Below, in pieces: positions 1,724-39,748 of a stretch of 64,000 nt of DNA. The translations under genes and the position numbers were made by a program. Origin of the DNA: Bolinopsis microptera (Eukaryota; Ctenophora; Tentaculata; Lobata; Bolinopsidae); contig NC_087081.1 in assembly GCF_026151205.1 (NCBI RefSeq), forward strand, positions 7,931,246 through 7,995,245, given 5' to 3'. The notes under the pieces were generated by a model. It searched no databases. It worked only from the letters and a program-made list of their open reading frames with translations, and was not told the DNA's origin. Within the stretch, counting starts at the first letter, position 1. Each line of letters starts with the position of its first letter.

Positions 1724-4700
1724 CTAAAATCCTTGCGTGCTTGAAGGGTCTTCAACAACTATTTCTCCAGCAAACATACGCTGTAACGCGTCTAGCGTGC
1801 AGACGATACCCCTGCAGTAAGTGTGATAAATCAAATAACTGGGTAATCAAATATTAAATTGCTTTGTTAATTGTGTCACTCACTTCAACGTGAGTTAAAT
1901 AGTGTTAATTCCGTGATCAATATGTGGGATCAGGAAAAAATTCTGGCGGTATAATATTTTTCATACTTTCATACTGATAAAATATACTTTTGCTCACCCT
2001 ATAATTCCGATAGTTAATATTATAATATCCCAAATCTTTTCTTTTTGAGTTAGGGACCTGTTAAAAGAATTAATTAATTATTAATAACTAATTAATTTGT
2101 CAATATTCTTCAGTTTGTACATATGTTTTAAAATAAGGTTCAGTTGACCAGTGCTTTATAATTATTTATAACATATAATTAATTATAAAGCACTGGTAAA
2201 CTGAACCTTATTTTAAGATACAATAATATTATGTTTCGTTTTTCGCTCTCTTGAGCGAATCACAATTGATTACTATAAAACTAATACATTTTTTCTTAAA
2301 TAACAAATAACAGCTCACTCTAATAACTAATGACTTACTCTTTGAATATCTTGAGGTGGAAGAGAGCAGGAAGTATGAAACCCAGTAGGGTACAGCAAGT
2401 AGCACCCACAAACGCCATCAGTATGGAGAAGTTGGGGACTATCGCTATTACCACGTAGGTAGTCAGTACCAGGGAGACTCTCATCATGTTCTGAAAAAGT
2501 AGGTAGTCAGTACTAGGGCGACTCTCATCATGTTCTGAAAAAGTAGGTAGTCAGTACTAGGGAGACTCTCATCATGTTCTGAAAAAGTAGGTAGTCAGTA
2601 CTAGGGAGACTCTCATCATGTTCTGAAAAAGTAGGTAGTCAGTACTAGGGAGACTCTCATCATGTTCTGAAAAAGTAGGTAGTCAGTACTAGGGAGACTC
2701 TCATCATGTTCTGAAAAAGTAGGTAGTCAGTACTAGGGAGACTCTCATCATGTTCTGAAAAAGTAGGTAGTCAGTACTAGGGAGACTCTCATCATGTTCT
2801 GAAAAAGTAGGTAGTCAGTACTAGGGAGAGTCTCATCATGTTCTGAAAAAGTAGGTAGTCAGTACTAGGGAGACTCTCATCATGTTCTGAAAAAGTAGGT
2901 AGTCAGTACTAGGGAGACTCTCATCATGTTCTGAAAAAGTAGGTAGTCAGTACTAGGGAGACTCTCATCATGTTCTGAAAAAGTAAGTAGTCAGTACTAG
3001 GGAGACTCTCATCATGTTCTGAAAAAGTAGGTAGTCAGTACTAGGGAGACTCTCATCATGTTCTGAAAAAGTAGGTAGTCAGTACTAGGGAGACTCTCAT
3101 CATGTTCTGAAAAAGTAGGTAGTCAGTACTAGGGAGACTCTCATCATGTTCTGAAAAAGTAGGTAGTCAGTACTAGGGAGACTCTCATCATGTTCTGAAA
3201 AAGTAGGTAGTCAGTACTAGGGAGACTCTCATCATGTTCTGAAAAAGTAGGTAGTCAGTACTAGGGAGACTCTCATCATGTTCTGAAAAAGTAGGTAGTC
3301 AGTACTAGGGAGACTCTCATCATGTTCTGAAAAAGTAGGTAGTCAGTACTAGGGAGACTCTCATCATGTTCTGAAAAAGTAGGTAGTCAGTACTAGGGAG
3401 ACTCTCATCATGTTCTGAAAAAGTAGGTTGTCAGTACTAGGGAGACTCTCATCATGTTCTGAAAAAGTAGGTAGTCAGTACTAGGGAGACTCTCATCATG
3501 TTCTGAAAAAGTAGGTAGTCAGTACTAGGGAGACTCTCATCATGTTCTGAAAAAGTAGGTAGTCAGTACTAGGGAGACTCTCGTCATATTCTGAAAAAGT
3601 AGGTAGTCAGTACTAGGGAGACTCTCATCATGTTCTGAAAAAGTAGGTAGTCAGTACTAGGGAGACTCTCATCATACATACATGTTACATGGCGAGATCT
3701 CCATCCAAAAGGATTAGTCTGCGTCATCTGCGTCATTACTTTGTATTATACAACTTCGGCGGGTAATATTTCTCCATCCTTTTCGATCTGCAGCCAATCT
3801 TCTCATACAATCAATCGTGAGTCCATTACGATCCAATCTCTGCTCAGCATCTTCAATAAATACATCATTTAAGCTCTTCCTAGGCCTGCCTCTTGATCGT
3901 TTCCCATGTTTGGGTTTCCATTCAAGTAGATAGTTAGGTAACCGATCTTCAGGCATTCTACTGACATGTCCAAACCAACGTAGCCGTTTTGTTGCTATTA
4001 TGTCAGTAAGAGCAGTTATTGAAGCCCTTCTTAAAACATCTTCATTTCTTACTCGATGGAACCACCTCACTCTCAGGATTCTGCGTAAGCAGTACTGATG
4101 GAAAGACTCTAATCTTCTTGTCTGCACTTGAGTCGTGTTCCATATCTCACTTCCATCATGTTCTGAAAAAGTAGGTAGTCAGTACTAGGGAGACTGTCAT
4201 CATATTCTGAAAAAGTAGGTAGTCAGTACTAGGGAGAGTCTCATCATGTTCTGAAAAAGTAGGTAGTCAGTACTAGGGAGACTCTCATCATGTTCTGAAA
4301 AAGTAGGTAGTCAGTACTAGGGAGACTCTCATCATGTTCTGAAAAAGTAGGTAGTCAGTACTAGGGAGACTCTCATCATGTTCTGAAAAAGTAGGTAGTC
4401 AGTACTAGGGAGACTCTCATCATGTTCTGAAAAAGTAGGTAGTCAGCACTAGGGAGACTCTCATCATGTTCTGAAAAAGTAGGTAGTCAGTACTAGGGAG
4501 ACTCTCATCATGTTCTGAAAAAGTAGGTAGTCAGTACTAGGGAGACTCTCATCATGTTCTGAAAAAGTAGGTAGTCAGTACTAGGGAGACTCTCATCATG
4601 TTCTGAAAAAGTAGGTAGTCAGTACTAGGGAGACTCTCATCATGTTCTGAAAAAGTAGGTAGTCAGTACTAGGGAGACTCTCGTCATATTCTGAAAAAGT

Positions 4701-7700
4701 AGGTAGTCAGTACTAGGGAGACTCTCATCATGTTCTGAAAAAGTAGGTAGTCAGTACTAGGGAGACTCTCATCATGTTCTGAAAAAGTAGGTAGTCAGTA
4801 CTAGGGAGACTGTCATCATATTCTGAAAAAGTAGGTAGTCAGTACTAGGGAGAGTCTCATCATGTTCTGAAAAAGTAGGTAGTCAGTACTAGGGAGACTC
4901 TCATCATGTTCTGAAAAAGTAGGTAGTCAGTACTAGGGAGACTCTCATCATGTTCTGAAAAAGTAGGTAGTCAGTACTAGGGAGACTCTCATCATGTTCT
5001 GAAAAAGTAGGTAGTCAGTACTAGGGAGACTCTCATCATGTTCTGAAAAAGTAGGTAGTCAGTACTAGGGAGACTCTCATCATGTTCTGAAAAAGTAGGT
5101 AGTCAGTACTAGGGAGAGTCTCATCATGTTCTGAAAAAGTAGGTAGTCAGCACTAGGGAGACTCTCATCATGTTCTGAAAAAGTAGGTAGTCAGTACTAG
5201 GGATACTCTCATCATGTTCTGAAAAAGTAGGTAGTCAGTACTAGGGAGACTCTCATCATGTTCTGAAAAAGTAGGTAGTCAGTACTAGGGAGACTCTCAT
5301 CATGTTCTGAAAAAGTAGGTAGTCAGCACTAGGGAGACTCTCATCATGTTCTGAAAAAGTAGGTAGTCAGTACTAGGGAGAGTCTCATCATGTTCTGAAA
5401 AAGTAGGTAGTCAGTACTAGGGAGACTCTCATCATGTTCTGAAAAAGTAGGTAGTCAGTACTAGGGAGACTCTCATCATGTTCTGAAAAAGTAGGTAGTC
5501 AGTACTAGGGAGAGTCTCATCATGTTCTGAAAAAGTAGGTAGTCAGTACTAGGGAGACTCTCATCATGTTCTGAAAAAGTAGGTAGTCAGTACTAGGGAG
5601 ACTCTCATCATGTTCTGAAAAATTAGGTAGTCAGTACTAGGGAGAGTCTCATCATGTTCTGAAAAAGTAGGTAGTCAGTACTAGGGAGACTCTCATCATG
5701 TTCTGAAAAAGTAGGTAGTCAGTACTAGGGAGACTCTCATCATATTCTGAAAAAGTAGGTAGTCAGTACTAGGGATACTCTCATCATGTTCTGAAAAAGT
5801 AGGTAGTCAGTACTAGGGAGACTCTCATCATATTCTGAAAAAGTAGGTAGTCAGTACTAGGGATACTCTCATCATGTTCTGAAAAAGTAGGTAGTCAGTA
5901 CTAGGGACACTCTCATCATATTCTGAAAAAGTAGGTAGTCAGTACTAGGGACACTCTCATCATATTCTGAAAAAGTAGGTAGTCAGTACTAGGGAGACTC
6001 TCATCATGTTCTGAAAAAGTAGGTAGTCAGTACTAGGGACACTCTCATCATATTCTGAAAAAGTAGGTAGTCAGTACTAGGGACACTCTCATCATATTCT
6101 GAAAAAGTAGGTAGTACGTACTAGGGAGACTCTCATCATGTTCTGAAAAAGTAGGTAGTCAGTACTAGGGATACTCTCATCATGTTCTGAAAAAGTAGGT
6201 AATCAGTACTAGGGAGACTCTCATCATGTTCTGAAAAAGTAGGTAGTCAGTACTAGGGAGACTCTCATCATGTTCTGAAAAAGTAGGTAGTCAGCACTAG
6301 GGAGAGTCTCATCATGTTCTGAAAAAGTAGGTAGTCAGTACTAGGGAGACTGTCATCATATTCTGAAAAAGTAGGTAATCAGTACTAGGGAGACTCTCAT
6401 CATGTTCTGAAAAAGTAGGTAGTCAGTACTAGGGAGACTCTCATCATGTTCTGAAAAAGTAGGTAGTCAGTACTAGGGATACTCTCATCATGTTCTGAAA
6501 AAGTAGGTAATCAGTACTAGTGAGACTCTCATCATATTCTGAAAAAAGTAGGTAGTCAGTACTAGGGAGACTCTCATCATGTTCTGAAAAAGTAGATAGT
6601 CAGCACTAGGGACACTCTCATCATATTCTGAAAAAGTAGGTAGTCAGTACTAGGGAGACTCTCATCATGTTCTGAAAAAGTAGGTAGTCAGTACTAGGGA
6701 TACTCTCATCATATTCTGAAAAAGTAGGTAGTCAGTACTAGGGAGACTCTCATCATGTTCTGAAAAAGTAGGTAGTCAGTACTAGGGAGACTCTCATCAT
6801 GTTCTGAAAAAGTAGGTAGTCAGTACTAGGGAGACTCTCATCATGTTCTGAAAAAGTAGGTAGTCAGTACTAGGGAGACTCTCATCATGTTCTGCAAAAG
6901 TAGGTAGTCAGTACTAGGGAGACTCTCATCATGTTCTGAAAAAGTAGGTAGTCAGTACTAGGGAGACTCTCATCATGTTCTGAAAAAGTAGGTAGTCAGT
7001 ACTAGGGAGACTCTCATCATGTTCTGAAAAAGTAGGTAGTCAGTACTAAGGAGACTCTCATCATGTTCTGAAAAAGTAGGTAGTCAGTACTAGGGAGACT
7101 CTCATCATGTTCTGAAAAAGTAGGTAGTCAGTACTAGGGAGACTCTCATCATGTTCTGAAAAAGTAGGTAGTCAGTACTAGGGAGACTCTCATCATGTTC
7201 TGAAAAAGTAGGTAGTCAGTACTAAGGAGACTCTCATCATGTTCTGAAAAAGTAGGTAGTCAGTACTAGGGAGACTCTCATCATGTTCTGAAAAAGTAGG
7301 TAGTCAGTACTAGGGAGACTCTCATCATGTTCTGAAAAAGTAGGTAGTCAGTACTAGGGAGAGTCTCATCATGTTCTGAAAAAGTAGGTAGTCAGTACTA
7401 GGGAGACTCTCATCATGTTCTGAAAAAGTAGGTAATCAGTACTAGGGAGACTCTCATCATGTTCTGAAAAAGTAGGTAGTCAGTACTAGGGAGACTCTCA
7501 TCATGTTCTGAAAAAGTAGGTAGTCAGTACTAGGGAGACTCTCATCATGTTCTGAAAAAGTAGGTAGTCAGTACTAGGGAGACTCTCATCATGTTCTGAA
7601 AAAGTAGGTAGTCAGTACTAGGGAGACTCTCATCATGTTCTGAAAAAGTAGGTAGTCAGTACTAGGGAGACTCTCATCATGTTCTGAAAAAGTAGGTAGT

Positions 7701-10700
7701 CAGTACTAGGGAGACTCTCATCATGTTCTGAAAAAGTAGGTAGTCAGTACTAGGGAGACTCTCATCATGTTCTGAAAAAGTAGGTAGTCAGTACTAGGGA
7801 TACTCTCATCATGTTCTGAAAAAGTAGGTAGTCAGTACTAGGGACACTCTCATCATATTCTGAAAAAGTAGGTAGTCAGCACTAGGGAGACTCTCATCAT
7901 GTTCTGAAAAAGTAGGTAGTCAGTACTAGGGAGACTCTCATCATGTTCTGAAAAAGTAGGTAGTCAGTACTAGGGAGACTCTCATCATGTTCTGAAAAAG
8001 TAGGTAGTCAGTACTAGGGAGACTCTCATCATGTTATGAAAAATTAGGTAGTCAGTACTAGGGAGACTCTCATCATGTTCTGAAAAAGTAGGTAGTCAGT
8101 ACTAGGGAGACTCTCATCATGTTCTGAAAAAGTAGGTAGTCAGTACTAGGGAGAGTCTCATCATATTCTGAAAAAGTTCAAATAAAGTTAAAATGAGTTG
8201 ATTTTCTGCTTAATGAGAATTGATTAGATTTGTGTTTATTACCTAGACTTAGCAGTAAAGAAATTGTTTTTAATCTGTATATTTCGTGCTATGATTAATT
8301 AATATCGGACATAATAAATAACAATAACGACTGTCACGTGACGTCATCACACAGTGCATTGTAACTAGATCATTACTTTAGTGTAAAAAACTTACAGATT
8401 TGTGGAGATTGTCAGTGCTTCTAAACTTTTTATCTAACAGTTTTACCACTGGAAACATCATTACTGAAAAAGAGGTTTTACTTACTTATCATGATTCATA
8501 TTACATTGAATTATAATGCATACATCGTACTTTCAGTTTATTTTACCGTAGCGATTTCAAAACATTTTACCGTACATTATTTTCCTGTACTCAATTAGAG
8601 TTTTATACAGAAACGAATAAATTTTTAGTTTTATAGTGCTTCAAAAGGTGGTACCAAAAATAACATATTATATCACATCATATTATATAAATTTATTCAA
8701 TAATTGTAATACTTGGATAAGTGAAGAAGAGACTGAAAGACAGACAAAGTCTGACAATATTAGGAACAATCCCATCAGGGAGATTAAGTGTGATAATCTG
8801 CATGGTAGTGTGACCAAAGGACATGTAACCGCAGACACCAAATGTTATGTACAGGATCACCAGCAGTGTTAGCCTGCAGAGGAATACAGTGTTATGTCAC
8901 GTGACAGTGTGGTTACGTCACGTGACAGTGTGGTTACGTCATGTGACAGTGTGGTTACATCATGTGACAGTGTGGTTACATCACGTGACAGTGTGGTTAC
9001 ATCACGTGACAGTGTGGTTACATCACGTGACAGTGTGATGACGTCACGTGACAGTGTGGTTACATCACGTGACAGTGTGATGACGTCACGTGACAGTGTG
9101 GTTACATCATGTGACAGTGTGGTTACATCACGTGACAGTGTGGTTACATCACGTGACAGTGTGGTTACATCACGTGACAGTGTGATGACGTCACGTGACA
9201 GTGCCATGTGAAAGTGCGATGACGTCATGTGACAGTCTGATTCAAGGTCATGTGACAGAGATTACCGCACCCTTTAGATAAAAACTCACTCTTTGCTATT
9301 ACTAATAGTTTGAGATACAGATTATAAGCATATTATAAAGTAATGTTACCATAGTAACAACACCTTACACCATGGTCATAAATAATTAAATAAAAACTCA
9401 CGCTTTAGCGAATATTTTTTTAAAGCTCTTCCGCAGGTTCTGAGCTACTGAAGTTTCTAAAGCTAAAATCATTCCTGCTCCTTCAAAACAGTACATGCTT
9501 ATACCCAGAAAGAAAGGTAGGTTTACTAGCGACTCTTCTCGTAGTCCTTTCCTGGGGTTTAACTTAGTTACAATTAATTAATTGTATAATTTGCTTAATT
9601 AAATTATTGGATGATAAGTTAATAGTATATTATTTTCGTAATCCTTTCCTGGGGTAAAGGGTTGTAAAGTTTAGCATAATATTATGCTAGCTAGCTAATA
9701 AGTTAAGTAGTTCATTTGTAAGGCAGGTTGTTTTAAACTGATAATAAGATGATCAGTTTAATACTATTAATAGATAATATTAATAACAATCTGTTATAAT
9801 TCTTATAAAAAACCGAAGTACTCACTCGATATTATCGAAATGTTCGAAGTCGAACCAAAAGACCACCACGTAAGCGAAGAGAGTAGCGAAGTCTGCCATC
9901 AAACTGAAAATTGCGAGACTTTTCAGAGTCCTTAACAAGTTTAACATAATCCAGCCAGGGAGCAGTAGCAATCTGAAATTATAACTTATTAGAAATAAGT
10001 TAAAATTTAGTTTTCTTCAACCTAAAATTTGAACTTATTAGAAATTAGGACTTATTTGTAATTACCTTACTCGGGAATATTATAGCGGGTTAATTTATGA
10101 CTGGGAAAATTAATAACCGGGAAAAATATGGCGGACTTTCCCAAAACCCGCCAAATTATCCCGGTCATGTATTTACCGGTGGCCGACCTTTCAAGTTTTT
10201 TTTCAGAGGTCAACAAATTTTCAACCGAAATTTCTGTTTTTGTTACTTGTTAAAGAAGTTATTTCAATTTACAGTTACTGATATTACTCAGAAATAGAAA
10301 AAAAGACACGTCTCTAGTATTTAAAGGAAAATAAATCTATAGCAATAATAAGTCAAATCTTCATTAAAGCGTATTCTCATTCTCATTATCGCTAATGTCC
10401 CCTCCATTATCATTATTGATATCCCCCTGCTGCTGACCGTCAAATTCGAAGTTGTATTGTTGTCTTAACAAGACTTTCATTTTGTCCGCTAATGGGGCTA
10501 CTGCTCTGAAGGTCAGCCGGAGCTTAATTTCCTGCCCACCGCTTGGTATTGGGAAACGTCTTGGCTTTGCATCTTCAACTGCTCCAGTAATCAATTCACC
10601 GTGGACCACGAAATAGTGGCACAGTTTACTCACTTCATGGGCAAGAAAAGTGAGAATCACGGTCCACCCTGAAATCTGATTTCTATAACCAAATTGTGAT

Positions 10701-13700
10701 TTTTATAACGAAATTATGGTAGCAACAGCCAATAAAGTTACAGCCCTCCATCCTCTGCTTCAAAAGTCTTCTCTAGCACATATGAGACTTCAGGTAAAAT
10801 ATGATGATCACCACCCCCTTGGAACCCCATAATCTGAGTCGGCGGGTTTTTTTATGACTGGTAAAATTTTTGACCGGGACAAATATGGCGGAATCTTCCA
10901 AAACCCACCACTTTATCCCGGTTATAATAATCCCGAGTAAGGTAGTTACAATTTAGCTTTATGTAATCCGAAATTAGAACTTATTAGAAATTAAGACAAG
11001 TTACAATTTAGTTTTCTACAATGTTAAATTAGAACTTAATAAATAAATAAATAAATTCTAACATTTATTGCACGCTTCGACAATAAAAATACCCAACAAA
11101 GATGTACATTTAAGTCATTCAAGCGAGACTTAGTGTTGAAATACCAAGATTATGGACTTTTTTAGTTTTTTAAACAGTTCAGATTTTATGAACAAATATT
11201 TGTATGAAGTTAACTTATTTAGTGTTTAGAAAAGTTTACAGTTCTGCCAGGCCAAAGGCTTTACTTTGGCCTTTTAAGCCAAGGCCTTACACAACTACCT
11301 TACTCGGGAATATTATGACTGGGATAAAGTGGTGGGTTTTGGAAAATTCCGCCATATTTTCCCCGGTCATTAATTTTCCAAGTCATAAATTAACCCGCTA
11401 TAAGATTCCCGAGTAAGGTAAACTTATAGTAATACATTTTGATGCTTGGTTGGTTTTGGAAATTCCGCCATATTTTTCCCGGTCATTAATTTTCCCAGTC
11501 ATAAATTAACCCGCTATAATATTCCCGAGTAAGGTACTGTAACTTTGCGCCTAAACAATTTTGAGACAAATTAAAAATCAGAATTTACACTACTAACAAT
11601 GTATCTAAAAACTTATCTAACACTTATTTTACTTCGGACATTCCAACAGCCAAATCGTTTTACAAGGTTAACCAGCCAATTACAGGAAGCCGAAGGATTC
11701 AATTATACATTAATTGGCCATTGACGGTATGGTAGTGTGTACCATACTTCCTTCACCCGAGACTTCACTGCAATGGGCAGCTCCTCATTTAACCCTCACA
11801 CCCGGTTTTTCGAGTATTTAGCTAATTGGACCGGCGGCATAGACCACTCGGAATCCTTAGCTGAGCGTCAACGACGCTCACCCCATGGCTGGTAGCTCAG
11901 CTGGGAATCGAACCTGTTACCTCGCAGGAAGATTTACCAACTGAGCCACCCAGCCAAAATGAATAGATAATACAACTTCATCAGCCTACAAATCGTATCA
12001 ACTCTAGATAAGAATATATAACAAAAGGTTCCTTGGTTTAGTACCTAAAGAAGTGCGCATAATAATATTTCCAGTTCAATCTTTCCGTTCAGACCCATTC
12101 TTGATATTTGGCAATATCAAGAACAATTTCACAAATTAAGGCGACTTAAAAACCCTTTGGTTTCCCTTGGAAACAAACACCAAAACCAAAATTAGCACCT
12201 CACGTGATGTCATCACACCATCACGTGATAGTGTGATGACGTCACGTGAAAGTTTTATGGCGTTACTTGGTAGTGCGACTTACATATCCTTTGGTCTCCC
12301 TGGAAACAAACACCACAACCAACATCAGCACACTCAACACGTGCAAATACCCCGCCACCCAGAAAGGGTGATTATTATACCCATACTGACACACAATAAT
12401 ACTAACAGCTGCTCCAAACTTGGAGCCCGTGATACAGGCTGACAGACCCAGTCCCCTGATGGCAGTAGGGAAGTACTCAGTAGCAACCAGATATGGGAGG
12501 AGGTCAGCTCCACACTTTAATATCCCCACAAACGTTATAATGCATTGGAAAGCCATCTTAGAAGTGGGCGTGGAACTGGGGCAGTTGTAAAAGTAGAAGT
12601 TGAAGGATATGAGCAGGAATGCGATTATATAGCCAGTCTCTTTCCGTCCTATCCATATAGCGGAGACAGCAGCCAGGATGGCTCCAACTGGGCTGATCAG
12701 CGTTGTCATGGCTTGGTGAAATAGTTTGTCGGAATCCACTATGCAGGGTTGCGTGGGTACTAAAAATCCATGGGGCCGGATACAGTATTCATCTTCTAAC
12801 AAGCTTGATTCATAGAAGGTATATCCGTAGTACAAAGCTTGAACGACAAACCCGTACGTAGCTAGAAGCATCATATCCGCTATTGGGAGGTTGTAACCGG
12901 ACAGCCTGCAAGCGCATCCAATTGAACCGTGAGGGTTATTGCCCGTATTTTCCTCGTCCTGGGTCATGGGCACCAAGTTGTAGTCCGGATTAGGTGAATC
13001 TCTCGTCCCTCTCCTCTCTGTCGTTCCCTCTCCAGTTATAGCCGGCTCTGGGGCTATTCCTGTGGAATCACTTTTACCGGCTTCTTTTTCCTCTTCTTCT
13101 TTTCCATCACCGCAACAGGAAACACAACAGGAAGAACAACATTTGCATTCGTTCAACGATTGTATTTGTTCCAGTGCCCTCCTTGCTTCCTTCTTCTTCC
13201 CCGCAGCGATGCTATATCGTGGGTTATCATCACTCAAACATAAGAACAACAGAGCAGGAACGTGAACCACATTAACAGCCAGGATGATAGCTCTCCACCC
13301 CATACTCTCATTCAGCAGCCAGGACATCAGCACCGCGAACGCTATCCCTGATGCTCTTACTGCTGCTCTAAGTGCCAGTACTGAAACCTTCCAGCGACTG
13401 GGGACCACTTCTACTAACAACGCTATAACTGGTGCCATACCTCCCCCTATGAAGAACCCTGTCGTCATCTGGAGGATAAGGTACATTGGGAATCCTGTGG
13501 AGAATCCTGTGAGTATCCCGGACACCAGCAATCCTGACACCATGGCCATTATCACTTTCCGTCTCCCATACTTGTCACTTAAAGGTGAACAGACAGTGGA
13601 ACCGCAGAATAGTCCTAAAACAACCCCGAACTCAATGAGGAACAGCTGATGTTGGTCCAGCTCCCAGTGGCACGTGACTATATTACTCACAACTGATTGT

Positions 13701-16700
13701 ATGGCGAGTTCAACTCCTTCAAAGATGATGAACAAACAAGGGGACAACACGAACAGCAGTGTTCCAAACCCCAGTCCTGACTGGTCAATGGCAGCACCAA
13801 CTGTTCCAATATTCAAATAATCCTCATCTTCTTTCGCAGTAAAATACTGTGTACTTGACTTTATTGATTCAACCAAAGTGGAGTTTTCTGAACAGGTGGA
13901 ATTTCTTGATGTTTGAGTCTCCCGGTCTGCCAAGGTCACTCTATCCGTCTGTACAGCATTCTCTGTCTTGCTCCTTTTCGAAAAATAGCGTCTAATGGCA
14001 GACTTCATAGATGTAAAGAAACCATCTCTCCAACAATAAGTAAAAGAAGAGAAGTGAAGTGTAGTAAACTGAATTGAGGTCGCCTCAAGTTTCTGAGGTA
14101 CCCTCAAGTGTTTGTACACGGTTAGAGTGTTATGAGTTCAACTGATCTATATAAATCAGTTATTTAGAATATATATTCGCATGTATCCACACTATATTTA
14201 CATTACACGTTCAACGTGATATCATTATCAGTGCAGTGTGTACAACACCAACTACACCGATCAATTGCCAATCTGCGAAACATTTAATTATTATTATCAC
14301 TTCGAGATGGCCAGGCCTACTCTCATGCTGTCTATAGGTGATGATTAACTCTGAAAAACTAGGGACAACTAGGGAATGATCCCAGAACCTCGACATTTCG
14401 CGTATCTTGCTCTACCAATTGAGCTACTGACCCTGATTCTCAGAGCGAAATCACCACTCATATACAGCACAATTTCATGCTTTGTGTGGAATATCATTTA
14501 TCAGTTATTTAGAATATATATTTATATATTTTTATATATTATATATTATATATAGTTATTTAGAATATATATTCGCATGATACATGCGAATTTATATTCT
14601 AAATAACTGATAAATGATATTCCACACAAAGCATGAAATTGTGCTGTATATGAGTGGTGATTTCGCTCTGAGAATCAGGGTCAGTAGCTCAATTGGTAGA
14701 GCAAGATACGCGAAATGTCGAGGTTCTGGGATCATTCCCCCATATCCAAAAAAATTTTTAATTTCCTACATTCTCAATTTTTTCGTTTTCTGTGGCCCAC
14801 TCGCTTCGCTCGCATAAAAAGTCTTTGTATTCGCGCGGTTCAAAGATTTTTCATGGCGGATTCCAGATTCTCAATTTTACTTTTTTAGTGCCCGGAATGC
14901 TTTTTAATAGATAATCCTAGGTTACTTTTGGGGGCGAAGCCCCCGAAAATTTTGCAAATTTAAACTAGATTTGGCCTCCTGGAACGAATCTGACAATGGA
15001 GAACGATTTTAGCATACTATTTTCTGATTTCAATTTTTATTGGGATAAATTGTCTGGATTCTAGAATCCCTAAACACTTGGCTTAACTAAAGCACGAAAT
15101 AGGATACAGCATGAAGTATCAAGAGTTTATAATTTTAGCAAAAATGTTTTCTCATCTACTACCATCACTTTCTGCTTCCAAGCTATAAACTAATACAGGG
15201 TTAAGGGAATTTGGAGAAGGAAGCAAGTATGAGACCAAATATTCAAGAAACAAGGAATTTAAATTTTCCAAAAATATAATAATGACTATTAGTATTTACT
15301 ATTTAAATAAGATAGGAAACGCAACAAAGAATGCTTATGCATTATGCATGTTTAGACGTATTACATCAACTCATAATACTATATAATGTTCTTTGAACTC
15401 CTGACATAAAGTTATTACAATTGCATTGATGACCGTTCACAACATTACATGATTGATAATGATATTATCAAAACTGGAATGGTAGTCTATATTGGGATTT
15501 GCAGAAGTTTTCTATAGCCGCCCCCATCCCCCCATGGGTGGTTTTTAGAAAAGAGTGGTTTCTTGCCATTCTCGTAGCAACCTGTTGAACAAGCTTTTCA
15601 CCCTCAGCAGAACATGGTGATGGAACTTTGGACGATTCATGATTAATAGGAAGTTCAACAACCCAATGTAAGCAACAAAAGCAAGCGGGCAGAGCGACTA
15701 ATTAAAAAACTAGAAAAAGTCCAATTCTCACGCCCATTCTAGCATCATCGTACAGATTAGTTAAAACGCCCTGTTTTTCTGATATTTTCTCACGCCACAC
15801 GAATTTGGGCTGGGTGTGTGCAGTGTGATACACACATTGAAGACGTGATGTGTATATGCTACTGCTTGCCAATACAGATTATCGGGTGACACTGTAGACA
15901 TATCCGGTTTCTTAGACTAGATAAGTAGATAGTAAAATGTTAATAAAGTAATAATGACAACTATTTATGTCGTGTACGCGAAAATGCCCCAATAATTAGC
16001 ATCTGGTTAGTGGTTACTTGATGCACAGATTTTGTAGCTAATAGCAAAAAACTTTGGTCTGTGAAACGAAATTTGATAGACTGGATCAGTGGATCCCTGA
16101 CTGAGGACATTTAAATAACGGTCCAGCAACTTTGAGTCTGCTCTTTCACTTAAATTCCTACTGAAATATTATCGAAAATTCTCAGAGTTGGCTCTCGAAT
16201 TTCCTACTTTTTGTCAAAAATTTCCTACTTTTAAAAATTTCCTACATTCTTAGAATGCGAGAATGCGGGTTTTTGGATATGGGATCATTCCCCAGTTGTC
16301 CCTAGTTTTTCAGAGTTAATCATCACCTATAGAGAGCATGAGAGTAGGCCTGGCCATCTCGAAGTGATAATGATCTATATAAAGTTTGATACTGTTACAG
16401 TGTAATGTCCAGAACTGATCTATATAAGTTGGACTGGAGTTACAGGCTAGAAGACACTGGAATTAAAATTGGCGGAATCAGGTTTGTTAACATAAAAATC
16501 AAAAATGCCGAATAATCAAAACATGGCCAAAACCAAGCTCGTATGTTATTACAGTTATCCATACTAGCAGGAACCCGTATAATATAACCCTAAACGGTGT
16601 CAAGACTCAAAATACTAAAATAATTATTACCTATTTAATTGGCGTTTTTGACACCACTTGGGGGTCCAAATTTTCGGCTCTAAAATCATTATTCCTTGGC

Positions 16701-19700: not shown

Positions 19701-22700
19701 ATTAGTATGACCCTACTTTCCTTTGAGTTTGCCATACCTGGTATACTTGTGCTTATTTGTATGTTTTTACAAATGTTTTACATCAAGCGTTCTCTTGGGC
19801 AAAGTGCAGACCCGCGACAAAATACTGCAAACCGGGCTAATCTCACAATATTTATGATATCCTTTCTGTATTTATTGAGCATATCTGTTTACTCTTGCAA
19901 CGAAATCATTCTCCATTGTTGTTGGCCAAATAATAATCACCTATTGGATATTGACTATAGCTGGAACCTGGTGGCAAAATTCACCCTACCACTGGTAAAT
20001 GCCGCACTGTTCCCGACCATCCTGATCCTGCGTAAAGCCGAGCTGAGAGTAATTTACAGAGGTTACATATCTACATTTGTACATCTGCCAGTCACGGTGT
20101 TCTGTAACATTCGTCACAGAGTCAGTGGGTACACATTTAGTACAAAGGATGAAGGGGTACACAGACATTAACTACAAAAAACTATCCGAGGAATCCGTAT
20201 GGAAACGGATTTGTGTCAAACATAAAATAAAAAGAAAAAAGAGTGATGTATTTTAGATTTTGTAAAAGACAAAATGATGAAAAAAAAGGCAGAAAAAAAC
20301 AAAATAAGGAAAAAATGTTTTCAAAGTTTAATGAAGGTTAGTTTAATTTGCGATCGTTTATTAAAAAGAAGAAAAATTTAATGTTTTGAGTGTTTGATAG
20401 TGTTAAACTCTGATTCATATGATTTAGAAATGTTTTAGATAAGAAAATAACGGATTATTCTAAATATTTGATTTTATAAAAGACAAAATAAGGAAAAAAA
20501 ATGTTTAAAAAGTTTTATGAACGTTAGTTTAATTTGCGATCGTTTATCAAAAAGAAAAAAATTTAATATTTTGAGTGTTTGATAGTGTTAAACTCTGATT
20601 GATATGATTTAGAAATGTTTTAGATAAGAAAATAACGAATTATTCTAAAGATTTGATTTTATAAAAGACAAAATAAGGAAAAAAATGTTTAAAAAGTTTT
20701 ATGAACGTTAGTTTAATTTGCGATCGTTTATTAAAAAGAAAAAAATTTAATATTTTGAGTGTTTGATAGTGTTAAACTCTGATTGATATGATTTAGAAAT
20801 GTTTTAGATAAGAAAATAACGAATTATTCTAAAGATTTGATTTTATAAAAGACAAAATAAGGAAGAAAATGTTTTAAAACTTTTATGAACGTTACATAGT
20901 TAGTTAGTTTAATTTGCGATCGTTTATTAAAAAGAAAAGTAATGATTTGAGTGTTTGATAGTGTTGAACTCTGATTGATTCAAAAACAAGGAAACGGCCT
21001 TGTTTGTGACACAATTTGTTAGCCTGATATTAGACTATCGGATGATTTCATTAATTTGCTTAAGGCTCTGTTCAGTGTTCATAAATTAAATTTATTACTT
21101 TGACAAAATAATGAATAATGATTGATATAAAATTAATTACTGCAAAAATAAGCGTTTTAAGTTTTCGTGAAAATAAGAATATCGGGGGAATTTATTCAGT
21201 TTATTAAAGACATGCTAAAACTAATTCTAAAAATATGGTATGATTATTAAAATTATGTGCGTTTAAACAGATAAAGATTAACTTATTTCGCTTTTCCCAC
21301 GGCCGGTACACACCCTAACATCAGAGATCTACACTCTTTCTCTATTTTTCATACTTTTAAGTACCGCTGATTTGAAATTATCTATCGCATAATATATCTA
21401 TTTTTATAAAACTTGTAATACTTCATACTCACTTAATATCATACTCTCAGAAGTAAGTAAATAATACTTAAATCATTATAAAACTACATACTACAAAAAA
21501 CATTTAAAACTACTTAAAAACATTTTAAAATAGTTATAAAATTTTCCAAATACTTCATTAACACTATAAAATACTTCATACTCACAGAAGGCCAGAGTAG
21601 TTGAAAGCAGGAATGGACAGGACCACATTGTGAGGTATAAATATAGCGTAGGCACAGCAGAACCCAACTTGAGACAGGCAGAGACTGACCTCAACCAGCC
21701 AGCGTCCGGTGTTACCCAGGGCAACCTGGCCAACATCCCCGTACTCGAGGTCAACGTCCTGAAATAATGTCTGGTAACTACAGAGTGCTGTTAAAGCGCT
21801 CATAAACCGTTTTCAGAGTGATTTCAGTCTAAGTTGACCCGGCAGAGAGCACTAAAACTATATCCTCTGCCTGTTGTTACGCTTTATCCAATTATTCCTC
21901 ATTCTACGTCAATTTTAAATGGCAGCACTATTATAATAAACGTGAAGGTTTTGAAATAGGGTAACAATTGACAAAAAGTTCTAAAATGTGACAGCAACTT
22001 TCAAAGATAGTAGCAACTGGCGAGTCGGATAATTAAAATGATGGAAATGAAGGGGAATTGGTGAAAATGACACATTTAGCCAATGACAACACACATACAG
22101 CTATAATACCTGAAACTGGTCGAAAACCACATCAGATCAGCGATTCACCGGATATATTTTAGAGATGATGAGCTCACGACGCAACCAATAATTGCTCTGA
22201 GAGCGCGGAAAAGCTATGTTGAAATGTATTCGATTCCGCGCGTTACATTTAAGAGGACCTCATCAGCCATTACGTGAGTCGTCATATCTGCAACTCTTAC
22301 ACAGTCAGTTAGTCTTACAAAAACCAAAGAGATGTTTGCCCAGAATGGCTCTGCAAGGATCTTTTGTAACCTACAATTACTGCACCCTAGCTCAATTAAA
22401 AAACGAATTACAACTAAATATTTAGGGGAAAAAGGTTCCCATGCCCTATATCATAACGTTCACCTTGTTGTCTTGGTCGATGTCATAAGAATTTCTTAAC
22501 CACCTACTGGATTTTTTCCCGATCCATGACTCAAAGGCACAAAAGAGTCAAGGACAATGGTTAGCGAACGAGGTTTTTTTTGATATGGTAGCTTTGCGAC
22601 CGTGTGTGCATGCCAATATGTCGCCCACGTTCTTAACTAGCCTGCGCAAAGTTATTTTGCGAGATATTCTGAATTAAATAATTATTGTCGCGCAGCGCTG

Positions 22701-29706: not shown

Positions 29707-29915
29707 GGGGTCGTTCACATATTACGTAATCACTTTTTGGGCAATTTTAACCCCCCCCCCCTCCCCCTACGTAATTAGTTTTACACATAGCTATTGTGTC
29801 ACAATTACACTAGCGTTATCATTTGGAAACCCCCATCCCCCCCCCTTCGGCTGATTACGTAATATATGAACAACCCCCCTCCCCTCAGCTGATTACGTAA
29901 TGTGTGAACGACCAC
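29707..29915. mobile_element. PIF/Harbinger-like MITE, 209 bp
   Basis: The ends are GGGGTCGTTCACATATTACG and the inverted TAATGTGTGAACGACCAC, flanked by TTA on both sides. It has a C-rich interior and no coding capacity. Confidence 0.8.
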
Positions 29916-30945: not shown

Positions 30946-32060
30946 TACAGCCATTTGGTAAGATTGAGAGGGTACCATAATTTTAGAGAGAAGTTTGAAA
31001 TTTACAATTTATAAGGTTAAAAAGTTAAACGGAGAGAAAGTTGAGACATTAGAGTAAGACAACATGACGTGTTGAGGTTGAAATAATTAAAGTATGTACA
31101 CATCTTATTGAATTGATTTATAATTGATATAAACTATAATTCATTAAAGTTACATTGTATATTAAAGTACCACGAAAATTGAACGACTAAATTCTTTCTG
31201 GTTCTTAGAGGAAACCTAACATAAAAATTTTCAATCTCTAAGAGTCTAAGATTCGTCTAGATGCCAACTTTTATAATTCATGTATTTATATTCTAATAAC
31301 AAAAAGACTTGACCAAATATCATGTAATTTAACTCGCACACATTTATAATATTCATATTTTCAAAGATTTTTGAGTTTTTATCTAATAAAAACCCTTCCA
31401 CCATTCATTTTTGTCTCATTATATTCGGTGAACCATAAATTGATAAACTAATACAATATTAATTATATCTAAACGAATTTCGATAAACTCAGTGAGTTTT
31501 AATCTAATATATAATACAATCTAATATAATCCATTATAATCATGAACTCTGTAAATTTGAAATATTGTAATGATTTCTATTGCTTAAATAATCAGTTTGT
31601 CAAACAATAATATCGAGAGAAGTTAAAAAGTACATTATCAGAATATTCTGAATTCTGACTAACTAAAAACAAATTGTGTAAATTTGCATAATACTATAAA
31701 TAATTAGCATAATATAAAATCATAATATTATTACATAATCATATTAACACAGGAACACGAATTTATATTCACGATGAAATTTCAAGTCTTTTGATTTTTA
31801 GTCCAACAACATTCAAAACCCTAAATCTTGCAATCAAGAAAGCACTACAATATTATAGCAGTCAGCCTTATTTGTTATTAATAAGCAAAACGTTTTAAAT
31901 TTAACTACCCTTGATTGGGTAGCAGGCACTAATTTAAATAAAAAGTGGAAATAGTTCAAAAAGCAGCATGGTGACGTCACGTGATCACTGTAATGACGTC
32001 ACGCGAGCAGTATAATGAAGTCACGTGATGTCACGTGAGTAGTGTAATGACGTCAAGAAA
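30946..32060. other. AT-rich intergenic DNA
   Basis: No gene seen. At 31970-32055 a few degenerate units of the E-box/CRE 21-mer (GACGTCACGTGATCACTG type) lie immediately beyond the astacin stop codon. Confidence 0.5.
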
Positions 32061-32893: not shown

Positions 32894-35800
32894 GGATAGA
32901 AACCATTATTTTAGTCCCAAAACACACGATTTACACGAAACAAACAAACAAACAAACAAACAAATAGACAGACAGGATACAAACCATTGTTGTAGTCCCC
33001 AGCAGCTCCATCATCTTGAGCCCCGCCACCCCAACACGGACCAGAAACTGATTTATATTTAGTAACAGCTTTAGTGCACGTGGTGTCTCCACAGGGTATT
33101 TGTATTTCGTGCTCGTAGGGGACTTCTTGTATACACAGGTCTGGGGGTGAGGTTAGTTATTATCACTATTAAATAAAATAATTGAGTATATTATTCTTGA
33201 GTTATTATCAAGGTAATGTAAATTAACAAGTTGAGTTACTGTGTGAAACAGAATGCGACTTAAAATTTAACAGCACTATATATTAAAGTTTATTCAAAAG
33301 AGTTGACAGAATAAACTCATCAACCAGCAATTATAACATGATACAACAATTAACTAACTAATCAGCTAACTAGTTAATTAGTTAATTAGATCTCACCAGA
33401 AGTAGCAGTAGGATCAGGATCCACATCATTGCCCTCCCAAGACTCAGTCGGTTCTACCTTCTTCTTACCTAACTCATACTGTGTCTTATTCCAGTTACAC
33501 ACCATAACCTTCTTCTCCTTTCATTACCTGGTAATTAGGTAATTAGTACCAGTGATAAAAGAGTTATTAGTAGTTAATTATCAGGCAATTAGTAGCGCAG
33601 GTAATTGAGTGATTATTTAATTAACAGTTACCTAGTCGAGCAGTCAGGTATAAAGCAGATTTTGTGTTTTGAAGAATTAAAAGTTTTAAATATCATTATG
33701 AACCCAATCAGGAGTAACACAAATAACAGCTGAACAACAATATAATTAATATTAACTAACTTAAAGATTTTAATCAATTAATTAACTAATTAACTAATTG
33801 AACAATTGAAATATAATTAACGAACAGGCATGGAGCATATCTCCCAGTCCACACCGTTCTCTTTACAAGCGTAGTGTTTCATCTCTTTGACTTGTGTGTC
33901 CACATACTTGGTACCGTACTCACATTGCTCCTCTGCAGTTGTTTATTAATAAGTTAATGTAATGCATATTATGCAATACAATAATGTAATTATTTACTGC
34001 TAGATAATTATGTAATATTAGACGGATAAAAGCTAAAGGACATCACGTGACGTCATCACACTGCTCACGTGACGTCATCATACTGTCACGTGACGCCGTC
34101 ACACTACTCACGTGATGTCATCACACTACATTAATACTCACCCAGATGCTGAGTGCACTGGTAGAGGGTATTAGCTCCGATTATATCGTATCCAGATAGG
34201 TATCTCCTTTGTCCCATATCAGCGGGGTTTTCTGCCAGCTTCTTTACTCGCAGTGTTTGTAAACCTGAGTTAAGCTCAGTTAGTTAAATTTAGTAAAATG
34301 ATGAAAAATTTATATCTTGTTAGAATTTACCATATTATAATTTATATGGTAAATTCTACCTTTTCTAATGATGATCGCTTGATAGGTAACATAATATTAC
34401 GTATTATTATATATATATTAGCTCGAAAATTGGGCACATTTTGATAAGTCATTAAATATTTAACAGTTAACTCCGAGAGGAAGAATATGTCAGATGCTAT
34501 CAGCCTTCTTGGGGTATAACACTTAGTTTACAACTAATTAATTAATCACTTAATTACTTTTAAAATCAACCTACCGGGCTGAGATCTGAAGTCGTAAGGA
34601 CCGTAGTGGGTAATAGACAAGTAGTCATAAGGAATACCTCGGGGGTCTATCTCATTACTGTTATACTTAGCAAACTGAAACAATCATAACTACGTCATCA
34701 TCTAACAAACTGAAACAATCATTATACATAATAATATAAATATATTCTCATTATATAATAATCCCCCTCCAGATTATATAATAGACAATAGACATCAGGC
34801 GGAGTGAAACCAGCATTGATAGATTAATGTATCTGGAAAATTAAACATTTAAAAGTTCACTGAAAAGGACACGTTGTGATGTAGAGGTGTAAGAAACAAG
34901 AACTTTAGATTAGAACGTCTTAAAACAAATCCACAATTCCAGGCAACACTGAACACACGCTCTCGGGACGATACAAAATATAAATTCACATTTCACATCC
35001 TTATCTAAAAAAGTTAACAAAACATAACAGCGCAATACACTCAAACTTAATCTGGCTTGAGTTCAACGTTTCTTCTAACAGACAATCTAACAAACAAACT
35101 CGGTAACCATGGTTACCTGTTCTCTTTTATCGTATCTGATATTAGCCCAGATAATATCAACATAGTCGTCACGATCCGGTCTACTCTGTTCGTGGAAAAA
35201 TCCTGCGTTTTGATTGGTTACTTTGAGAAAATATACTGTGTTTTGATTGGTTACTTTAGATAGGTTCTTATACTGTGACAGCTTTGTAAATGTATTCGCA
35301 TTTAAATTTCACACAATAAAAGAATAAATTATGAAAATACACCACATGGTTAACAGCTGACAGAATATCATATTAACAAGGAATACAAGGAATACAAGGA
35401 ATACAAGGAATACAAATTTAAAATCTTGAGCTACAATAGTAACTGTTAAGATAATAACAATATCATAAGATTTGAATTTATTATATTAATATAACTTAAC
35501 TAAAGTGAAAAATAAAGATTTGACATAAAATATTTTGTTTTCAGTCGCCTTGGTAATGCTGTAATGCTTGAGCCAGGTCACTTTGCAGTTTGCACTCGTC
35601 GTTGCGCGAAAAGAAACAAAAGCGGTTACAGTGATTTTCAGTGTTCACTGTTCATGTACTGGCCAGAGAGTCAACAAATTTCTTGCGGTTGTTAAAACAC
35701 GTAGTGGCAAACCTAGCAACGACTCTCGTGAGGTGGACTTGACTTTCGTTCGTGATAAGTTCAATGATTTCACTGTTGTTGCTGATGAATTTGAGGACGT

Positions 35801-38800: not shown

Positions 38801-39748
38801 TGAGGTTTTTAAGTTCTTCAAAATATGGAAATATAACGCAAATTTGGAAATTAATATATCATACGTTTTGAACTAACCTATAACATGAGCAAGTTCGTGG
38901 AGTGCAAACCCGGGAGTTCCACACCCTTTACCAAGCGAGAGGAGTTGTTCACCGTCCCCCCTTCCTATCGTCGCAAAACATCTGAACAATTTCAATATTT
39001 AGTGAGGAGTTGTTCACCGTCCCCCCTTCCTATCGTCGCAAAACATCTGAATAATTTCAATATTTAGTGAGGAGTTGTTCACCGTCCCCCCTTCCTATCG
39101 TCGCAAAACATCTGAACAATTTCAATATTTAGTGAGGAGTTGTTCACCGTCCCCCATTCCTATCGTCGCAAAACATCTGAACAATTTCAATATTTAGTGA
39201 GGAGTTGTTAACCGTCCCCCCTTCCTATCGTCGCAAAACATCTGGACAATTTTAATATTCAGTGAGGAGTTGTTCACCGTCCCCCCTTCCTATCGTCGCA
39301 AAACATCTGAACTAGTTCAATATGGGGGGGGGGGGGGGGTCACCAAAACACGGAAGTGTGCAGTAATAAATACCACACCCGCAATAACATCGGACCCTAG
39401 CAAATAAAGTAGCATAAATAAATCAATCAAACATAATATCATATATTATTATATACAACATAAGTTATAGTAAGTACACATTTTAATCGTTTCAATAATA
39501 TCTAATCTTGTGTGAGTTTTTTATTTTGAATTGATAACACTTATTATATACTTTTGAGTAAACGTTGGCTGGTATTTCTGTCCCCAACAAAAAACACAAC
39601 ACTAATTAAGTATACTAGTTTACTTACCCCTTGCCACTGGCGAATCTAACATAGTTGGTATCTGATGGTAACTTCTTCCTAAACCTGATACACGTGTTCA
39701 ATTCCCAGCTCCTCATAGCGGACTCTAGAGCATGCAGCTTCCTCAGAC
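32061..39748 (-). CDS. Astacin-family metalloprotease with TSP1 domain, 5' end missing
   Basis: Secreted zinc protease. Exons on the minus strand: 39748-39628, 38981-38878, 35202-35117, 34674-34575, 34264-34142, about 33932-33826, about 33512-33397 (border unsure), 33140-32985, 32731-32605, 32375-32313, 32196-32061; phases fit elsewhere. The catalytic domain reads SAMRSWELNTCIRF, then GEQLLSLGKGCG, zinc site HELAHVIGFFHEQSRPDRD, turn YDYLSITHYGPYDF, and ends GANTLYQC. The Met-turn methionine of astacins is threonine here. Two Cys-containing exons follow, then a thrombospondin type 1 repeat (WSGWSPWSPCNRKCGRG to VKLCCVEPC, split by an intron) and an acidic tail ending GDEEL. Signal peptide, propeptide and the first strand of the protease were not found upstream. 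Confidence 0.88.
34043..34135. repeat. E-box/CRE 21-mer, four degenerate units
   Basis: CACGTGACGTCATCACACTG and variants, immediately 3' of astacin exon 34264-34142 on its strand. It is the same family as arrays at 1.6, 8.3, 8.9, 12.2 and 32.0 kb. Confidence 0.85.
35652..37575 (-). mobile_element. 5'-truncated LINE with reverse transcriptase core
   Basis: Open for about 640 codons. It starts just inside the reverse transcriptase at LGFAKGAQTYDHILTLN and VFVDFRKAFDSV. It continues with GTEQGHPLSPDLF, the active-site box as WADD (LLWADDLILLALDP), then a C-terminal region with CSWC and HFLNHC zinc-ligand spacing. The endonuclease and ORF1 are missing, as expected for 5' truncation. The frame is intact to its stop at 35652, so the copy is probably young. 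The first ATG-like start is actually GTG; this is a fragment, not a host gene. It lies in an astacin intron, same strand. Confidence 0.9.
37815..38633. repeat. 11-bp array with higher-order repeat
   Basis: About 74 units of AGTGTCACAGC with scattered variants. Blocks such as CAGAAGTGTCATAGCAATG recur about 260 bp apart (37.84 and 38.10 kb), so a second-level unit has been amplified. The many overlapping reading frames are artefacts. It lies in an astacin intron. Confidence 0.95.
38940..39322. repeat. 65-bp tandem repeat of an astacin splice acceptor, six copies
   Basis: On the minus strand each unit holds ATTGAAATTGTTCAG followed by ATGTTTTGCGACGATAGG and the next part of exon 38981-38878, up to GAACAACTCCTC. 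The copy nearest the gene is the real exon start. Each of the other five is a complete duplicate acceptor plus the first ~41 exon bases. The outer edge is a run of G. Confidence 0.92.

Follow-up and report, generated by a model that had tools for sequence, protein, structure and literature searches.

The 3' splice site of a putative amino-acid transporter gene has been multiplied to 119 copies in a single intron of Bolinopsis microptera, within the 64,000-nt stretch of DNA analysed here (the window). Each copy is a 44-bp tandem unit that joins the end of the intron to the beginning of the following exon, and the last copy runs into the exon proper. Judged from the reading frame, and from similar arrays in the same genome, this is probably a neutral minisatellite of the kind called a mirage, tolerated because splicing would use the 3'-most acceptor.

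The array and its host gene

The array lies on the minus strand at 2455-8175 and consists of 118 full units and one that is split, or 119 when the start of the real exon is included. On the minus strand each unit reads TTTTTCAG followed by AACATGATGAGAGTCTCCCTAGTACTGACTACCTAC (44 bp), i.e., 8 intron bases and the first 36 exon bases. The preliminary description was thus right that an intron-exon junction had been amplified, and its estimate of about 119 near-identical acceptors in intron 8 agrees with a count of well over a hundred; it was also right that the array stops at the real exon, but the end lies at 2455, not 2446. The TRF score of 9,138 excludes a chance origin. The units are very alike (mean divergence 1.3%; 70 of the 118 full units match the consensus), and TTTTTCAG is unaltered in all full units except two; one unit has an altered T tract and one spacing is 45. 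The earlier statement that every unit carries an acceptor is true of 117 of the 118 full units but not of an upstream one, in which the AG has been lost (8036-8043). The exon's own copy differs from the array unit by a single synonymous change at unit position 29 (CTG vs CTA). Both breakpoints have AC in common, as noted before (intron ...TTTGAAC before TTTTTCAG; exon ...CTACCTAC before GTGG), although a two-base microhomology is weak evidence.

Is this a satellite, as it had been called? It is a tandem array, but a single-locus minisatellite describes it better because a search of the 264.65-Mb assembly, of a kind that can miss common words, placed the 88-bp dimer at this locus alone, whereas satellite DNA occurs at many loci. 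The most distal unit (8132-8175, minus strand) directly follows the end of the ancestral intron (TTTTAACTTTATTTGAAC immediately before TTTTTCAG). Units 117 and 118 each have changes of their own. Unit variants are scattered irregularly along the array: higher-order repeats were not detected, shared blocks being no more frequent than in shuffles (largest lag score, p = 0.37), and a weak signal at lag 4 comprises four shared units (p = 0.012 for lag 4 alone). One unit is split by a 478-bp insertion (3676-4153, minus strand, in the gene-sense orientation) with CATCAT on both sides (3670-3675 and 4154-4159). The insertion contains an open frame, which we take to resemble the terminal part of an ORF from a non-LTR retrotransposon and which had no Pfam match. 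Forty scored places in the assembly, this one included, are 98-100% identical; the identity to the 39 other copies marks the insertion as young, and at this spot the array predates it.

The host gene is predicted to encode an SLC36-like (SLC36/PAT) amino-acid transporter: the joined exons of the window match Pfam Aa_trans (PF01490, 6.7e-40) and, in the PDB, proton-coupled amino-acid transporter 1 (PAT1; 9v3t, 8.6e-22), and the PAT1 alignment runs across the exon junction LHKS/NMMRVSLVL. The real exon, called exon 9 before, occupies 2339-2490 on the minus strand (152 nt; encoding NMMRVSLVLTTYVVIAIVPNF...LKIFKE); both matches support the start at 2490 that had been proposed for it. Its acceptor, TTTTTCAG at 2491-2498 (minus strand), is the 3'-most of the 119 copies; on its 3' side stands a GTAAGT donor (2333-2338), and unspliced read-on reaches TAA at once. 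The preceding exon (8396-8463, minus strand, 68 nt, IMMFPVVKLLDKKFRSTDNLHKS) has a GTAAGT donor at 8390-8395 and is separated from the array by 220 bp. The intron is now 5,905 nt long; the ancestral one, starting at 8395 and ending at the acceptor of the most distal unit, would have been about 228 nt. Further upstream on the minus strand are transporter exons at 8713-8873, 9402-9540 and 9825-9972, the edges of the last two being approximate, and a weak Aa_trans match at 21450-21758 (22.4 bits, below the cut-off), which contains stops and likely marks an exon region further upstream in this gene. Searches of about 10 kb downstream, by eye and by script, did not find the last exon (TM11).

When the arrays in the window were screened by script for acceptor-like sites in their final units, the 44-bp array and a two-copy repeat at 29837 were flagged, and no others. 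A second repeat in the window, at 38939-39323, is by its appearance a candidate boundary array.

Reading frame and choice among acceptors

The preceding exon ends, and the real exon starts, on a codon boundary. When the 117 full upstream units (including the one without AG; the split unit was left out) are read from the acceptor position, every one meets an early stop: 114 after 16 residues, typically NMMRVSLVLTTYFFRT and a stop, two after 11 and one after 31. This stop arises irrespective of the number of units included. The argument made earlier, that 44 is not a multiple of three and extra units would mostly break the frame, is too weak: every full upstream unit is a predicted poison. Splicing to any of them should yield ...LTTYFFRT-stop or a close variant, hence no full transporter; nonsense-mediated decay of such RNA would hinge on a further exon downstream. 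Regulation of exon length, one of the outcomes considered before, is unlikely, since even one added unit would cut the protein short. The reading frame thus suggests that all copies except the one at the edge are intronic.

How, then, would the splicing machinery tell the right acceptor from its copies? Since a unit also precedes the real acceptor, real and upstream sites share a common context, identical from -18 to +3 in 92 of the 117 upstream sites, from -20 to +20 in 76 and over 48 nt (-28 to +20) in 71. In a position weight matrix (PWM) made from 72 acceptors that a script picked from kinase and kinesin exons of the same genome, 98/117 upstream acceptors equal or exceed the score of the real one, which itself stands at a percentile of 0.28 among the 72 sampled. 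With such local near-identity, the choice must come from position; for most upstream sites, position alone is left to mark the right acceptor. By eye, the exon-derived CTGAC in each unit, whose A lies sixteen bases upstream of the TTTTTCAG end, is a candidate branch point.

Under intron definition or first-come-first-served choice, the earliest good acceptor is preferred; under exon definition, it is the last. The locus is therefore a natural test of the acceptor-choice rule, 71/117 full upstream acceptors being equal to the real one over 48 nt: use of the last acceptor, if found, would support a position-based choice (e.g., exon definition) over first-come choice. The scenario that we favour begins with one short tandem duplication, which would have copied the acceptor of the ~228-nt intron; its breakpoints, at intron -8 and exon +36 with AC shared, are visible in the DNA. 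Growth to 119 units may have followed by unequal exchange or slippage, the units being tolerated since they would become intron. Splicing would take place at the 3'-most acceptor, next to the intact exon, as the coding frame and RT-PCR in amphioxus suggest, and the last acceptor would most likely be chosen by pairing with the exon's own downstream donor, i.e., by exon definition. Exon definition by this donor is not assured because no last exon was found and direct read-on meets TAA. The array itself would have no required function.

Acceptor arrays across the genome and competing explanations

The array is not alone: the genome contains no fewer than six other acceptor mirages, of 3 to ~10 units each, besides an array in which the acceptors are almost bare. 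Three copies of TTTTCAG at 23-53 nt spacing match at 1,012 places, against 200 for the reversed pattern. The 100 places listed amount to 21 arrays, 20 of which were fetched; three of these end in an open frame that starts with unit bases, and no recognisable exon was seen in the other 17. For two of the three, Pfam supports coding after the array: L014 (45 bp x 3) leads into a thrombospondin type 1 exon and L025 (37 bp x ~10) into one of an M1 peptidase; the third (L019, 23 bp x 4) has an open frame up to GTAAAT and no Pfam match above the cut-off. Among 20 arrays with TTTGCAG or TTTTTAG (all 11 from the places listed in one search, 9 of 27 from the other), one is a further mirage (L126, 43 bp), the open frame of which includes a likely membrane helix and has no Pfam match above the cut-off. 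In all, 36 of the 40 acceptor-like arrays fetched lack a recognisable exon at their end. A paralogous Aa_trans gene has an array before the homologous exon (L006, 33 bp x 8; Pfam supports coding), with the frame open throughout. Elsewhere in the genome, an ionotropic glutamate receptor (L009) has kainate and delta receptors as its best matches; among the first 60 rows listed of 164 and of 366 matching sequences, no protein is named as ctenophore.

A sample of exon starts picked regardless of repeats gives an idea of frequency: 2 of 91 lie inside acceptor arrays. The sample comprises 31 kinase starts (from 136 listed Pkinase matches) and 60 kinesin starts (from 109 listed), hand-picked where the match begins inside the domain, with tandem gene copies and split matches excluded; two members (L064 and L065) look like near-duplicates, 72 of the 91 yielded an acceptor, and an exon edge is not proven for every start. 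Three arrays were flagged over an exon start, one of which (L102, 2.1 diverged copies) was left out of the count. Both of those counted are in kinesin genes with Pfam support for coding: one is a true boundary array (L072, 49 bp x 7, coding after the array), while the other (L118, 26 bp x 15) includes the acceptor and only about three exon bases.

Tandem acceptor-like heptamers exceed their reversed controls 2.7 to 11 times (704 against 62 and 408 against 151, besides the TTTTCAG pattern above), and this excess could be more than neutral spread. A few big arrays dominate the listed heptamer matches. A donor pattern, three GTAAGT, shows a like excess (17,071 matches against 3,121 for reversed controls); the first 100 places listed span only 2.6 Mb, and no exons are assigned among them.

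Three observations make neutral birth the best fit, on present analysis, among the four outcomes offered by the preliminary description (the others being a splicing decoy, a kinetic delay and regulated exon length): (i) the genome has more acceptor arrays; (ii) unit lengths are blind to frame, only two of the eight (44, 33, 45, 23, 37, 49, 26 and 43) being multiples of three; and (iii) acceptor bases are not measurably conserved, with 2 of 20 variant types falling in the 8 acceptor positions of the 44 (P = 0.27), although with only 20 types weak selection on these bases could have gone unnoticed. Repeat coverage around the 91 exon starts is about 8% at 200-400 nt upstream and 4.6% in the last 40 nt; inside the exon it drops to 1.3% over the first 40 bases, and the 80 bases after these have none. 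The genome is rich in minisatellites, of which those inside exons are probably lost; survival of acceptor-crossing arrays, in which only the 3'-most copy must work, suits the neutral account. Mirages, these data suggest, are a general by-product of a high minisatellite load.

Could the array instead act as a brake, some transcripts being spliced early, stopped and lost, so that its length tunes the transporter dose? Upstream, 117 acceptors are usable (the split unit and 116 full ones that keep AG), and some facts would suit a brake: a stop follows from every full upstream unit, most sites score no lower than the real one, and splicing to the distal acceptor, which is transcribed 5.7 kb sooner, brings back the 228-nt intron of the ancestor. 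Yet poisoning is not a common property of these arrays, given the two multiples of three among eight and the open frame of the Aa_trans paralog, and the acceptor signal is conserved no more than by drift; amphioxus mirages, in the parts of PMC3087553 drawn on here, are reported without splicing disturbance. We consider such a brake unlikely, and slightly more so its strict form, in which poison acceptors compete with the productive one and unit number, varying between individuals or cells, sets the amount of transporter. If it were true, the other mirage-bearing genes of this genome would share a layer of length-coded expression control.

Tandem arrays are error-prone in assembly, and the true array might be far shorter; in what was drawn from PMC3087553, the amphioxus BflGb6 mirage is reported as aberrant in the draft assembly. 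An artefact is nevertheless very unlikely here, with variants spread irregularly over the units, the 478-bp insertion at one place inside and, as weaker support, similar arrays elsewhere in the same assembly. Moreover, 5.7 kb fits within the length of long reads. Least credible of all is that the array helps the locus in some other way (as recombination hotspot, through chromatin or by intron enhancement) and the splice site is incidental: the portions used of PMC4039745 and PMC12783039 connect intronic minisatellites with splicing choices or put them forward as recombination hotspots, but nothing in the window was noticed to point to such a role, and the unit is merely exon plus eight intron bases.

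Relation to known systems

An acceptor array of such length was not found in the literature searched; the new features are its size (119 units), a frame poisoned from every full upstream unit and the recurrence in the genome. A human counterpart on the donor side is the 6-16/IFI6 gene, in which Turri, Cuin and Porter (1995) reportedly described a minisatellite with multiple splice donors, copies being used to vary the transcript; as here, a short tandem repeat is said to multiply a splice site at an exon edge, but the site is a donor, not an acceptor. Human segmental duplications contain internal tandem repeats at exon-intron boundaries that arose by minisatellite expansion, with units of about 30 bp; they share this mode of growth at boundaries but, in the sections of PMC2812944 used, have about four units, are often retained in an alternative transcript and are linked to intron gain. 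CeRep25B of C. elegans is likewise an intronic minisatellite linked to splicing choices but is palindromic and lies in chromosome clusters, and its description, as far as used, states no splice-junction origin (PMC4039745).

The closest parallels are the mirages of amphioxus, the only setting in which this name was met in the literature searched. They are described, in the portions used, for Adh3, the globins BflGb6 and BflGb9, and PGBD5 (PMC3087553, PMC3902484), the last added in PMC3902484, where troponin C is also cited. Their structural features, as far as PMC3087553 sets them out, are found here: a repeat across an intron-exon boundary (8 intron and 36 exon bases, 119 copies), a genuine section at the edge (the last copy continues into the PAT1-aligned exon) and splice signals in many copies (AG in 117/118 full units). 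Mirages are further characterised in PMC3087553 by concerted evolution that spares the copies at the edge, by unstable length (between haplotypes or somatically) and by undisturbed splicing; as to the first of these, the array shows 70 of 118 full units equal to the consensus, unique changes in units 117 and 118, and shared blocks at the level of shuffles. By its sequence, the array fits the structure of a mirage. In amphioxus, too, the accessible accounts describe tandem copies of the boundary with acceptors in the intron and the genuine exon at the edge, report the other copies as spliced out and record recurrence within one genome. The Adh3 units are reported there as 10-72 bp long; BflGb6, by the same accounts, has 3 and 6 units of 150-160 bp in two haplotypes, against 119 of 44 bp. 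What sets the ctenophore array apart from the amphioxus mirages, as these sources present them, is that all of its full upstream units poison the frame.

The array and its counterpart in a paralogous transporter

The 44-bp acceptor array is interrupted by a 478-bp insertion (3676-4153, minus strand) with CATCAT at either flank; 39 other scored places match it at 98-100% identity. Judged from sequence, this is a young mobile-element fragment. The paralogous Aa_trans gene (locus L006, from contig C10 of the genome assembly G000) carries an acceptor array of its own, eight units of 33 bp at L006:2556-2823, across all of which the frame stays open; use of an upstream acceptor there would lengthen the protein by 11 residues per unit.

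Other minisatellites of the window

Five places (1571-1722, 8897-9203, 12221-12275, 31972-32055 and 34043-34127) hold minisatellites whose 21-22 bp units are related to one another and TCACGTGACAGTGTGATGACG-like; one of these minisatellites ends 24 bp ahead of an exon acceptor. A tandem repeat of 5.9 copies of a 65-bp unit (38939-39323), beside which an ATG at 38885 is followed by a partly open frame, may be another boundary array; if so, the boundary is perhaps that of a donor.

An apparently nested gene, neighboring open frames and intron-poor genes

An intronless frame of 624 aa resembling MFS/sugar transporters (12266-14137, minus strand; PF00083, 9.7e-23) shares its strand with the Aa_trans gene and is flanked by Aa_trans exons; apparently, it is nested inside an intron of that gene. 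Open frames that resemble a GPCR, a likeness judged by eye only, lie before the window start (L004, window -4933 to -7146, minus strand), some 7 kb downstream from the transporter exon. Genome-wide, 22 of 32 Lig_chan-Glu_bd matches fall within open frames of >400 codons; by this measure, ionotropic glutamate receptor genes that have few introns or none are numerous in G000.
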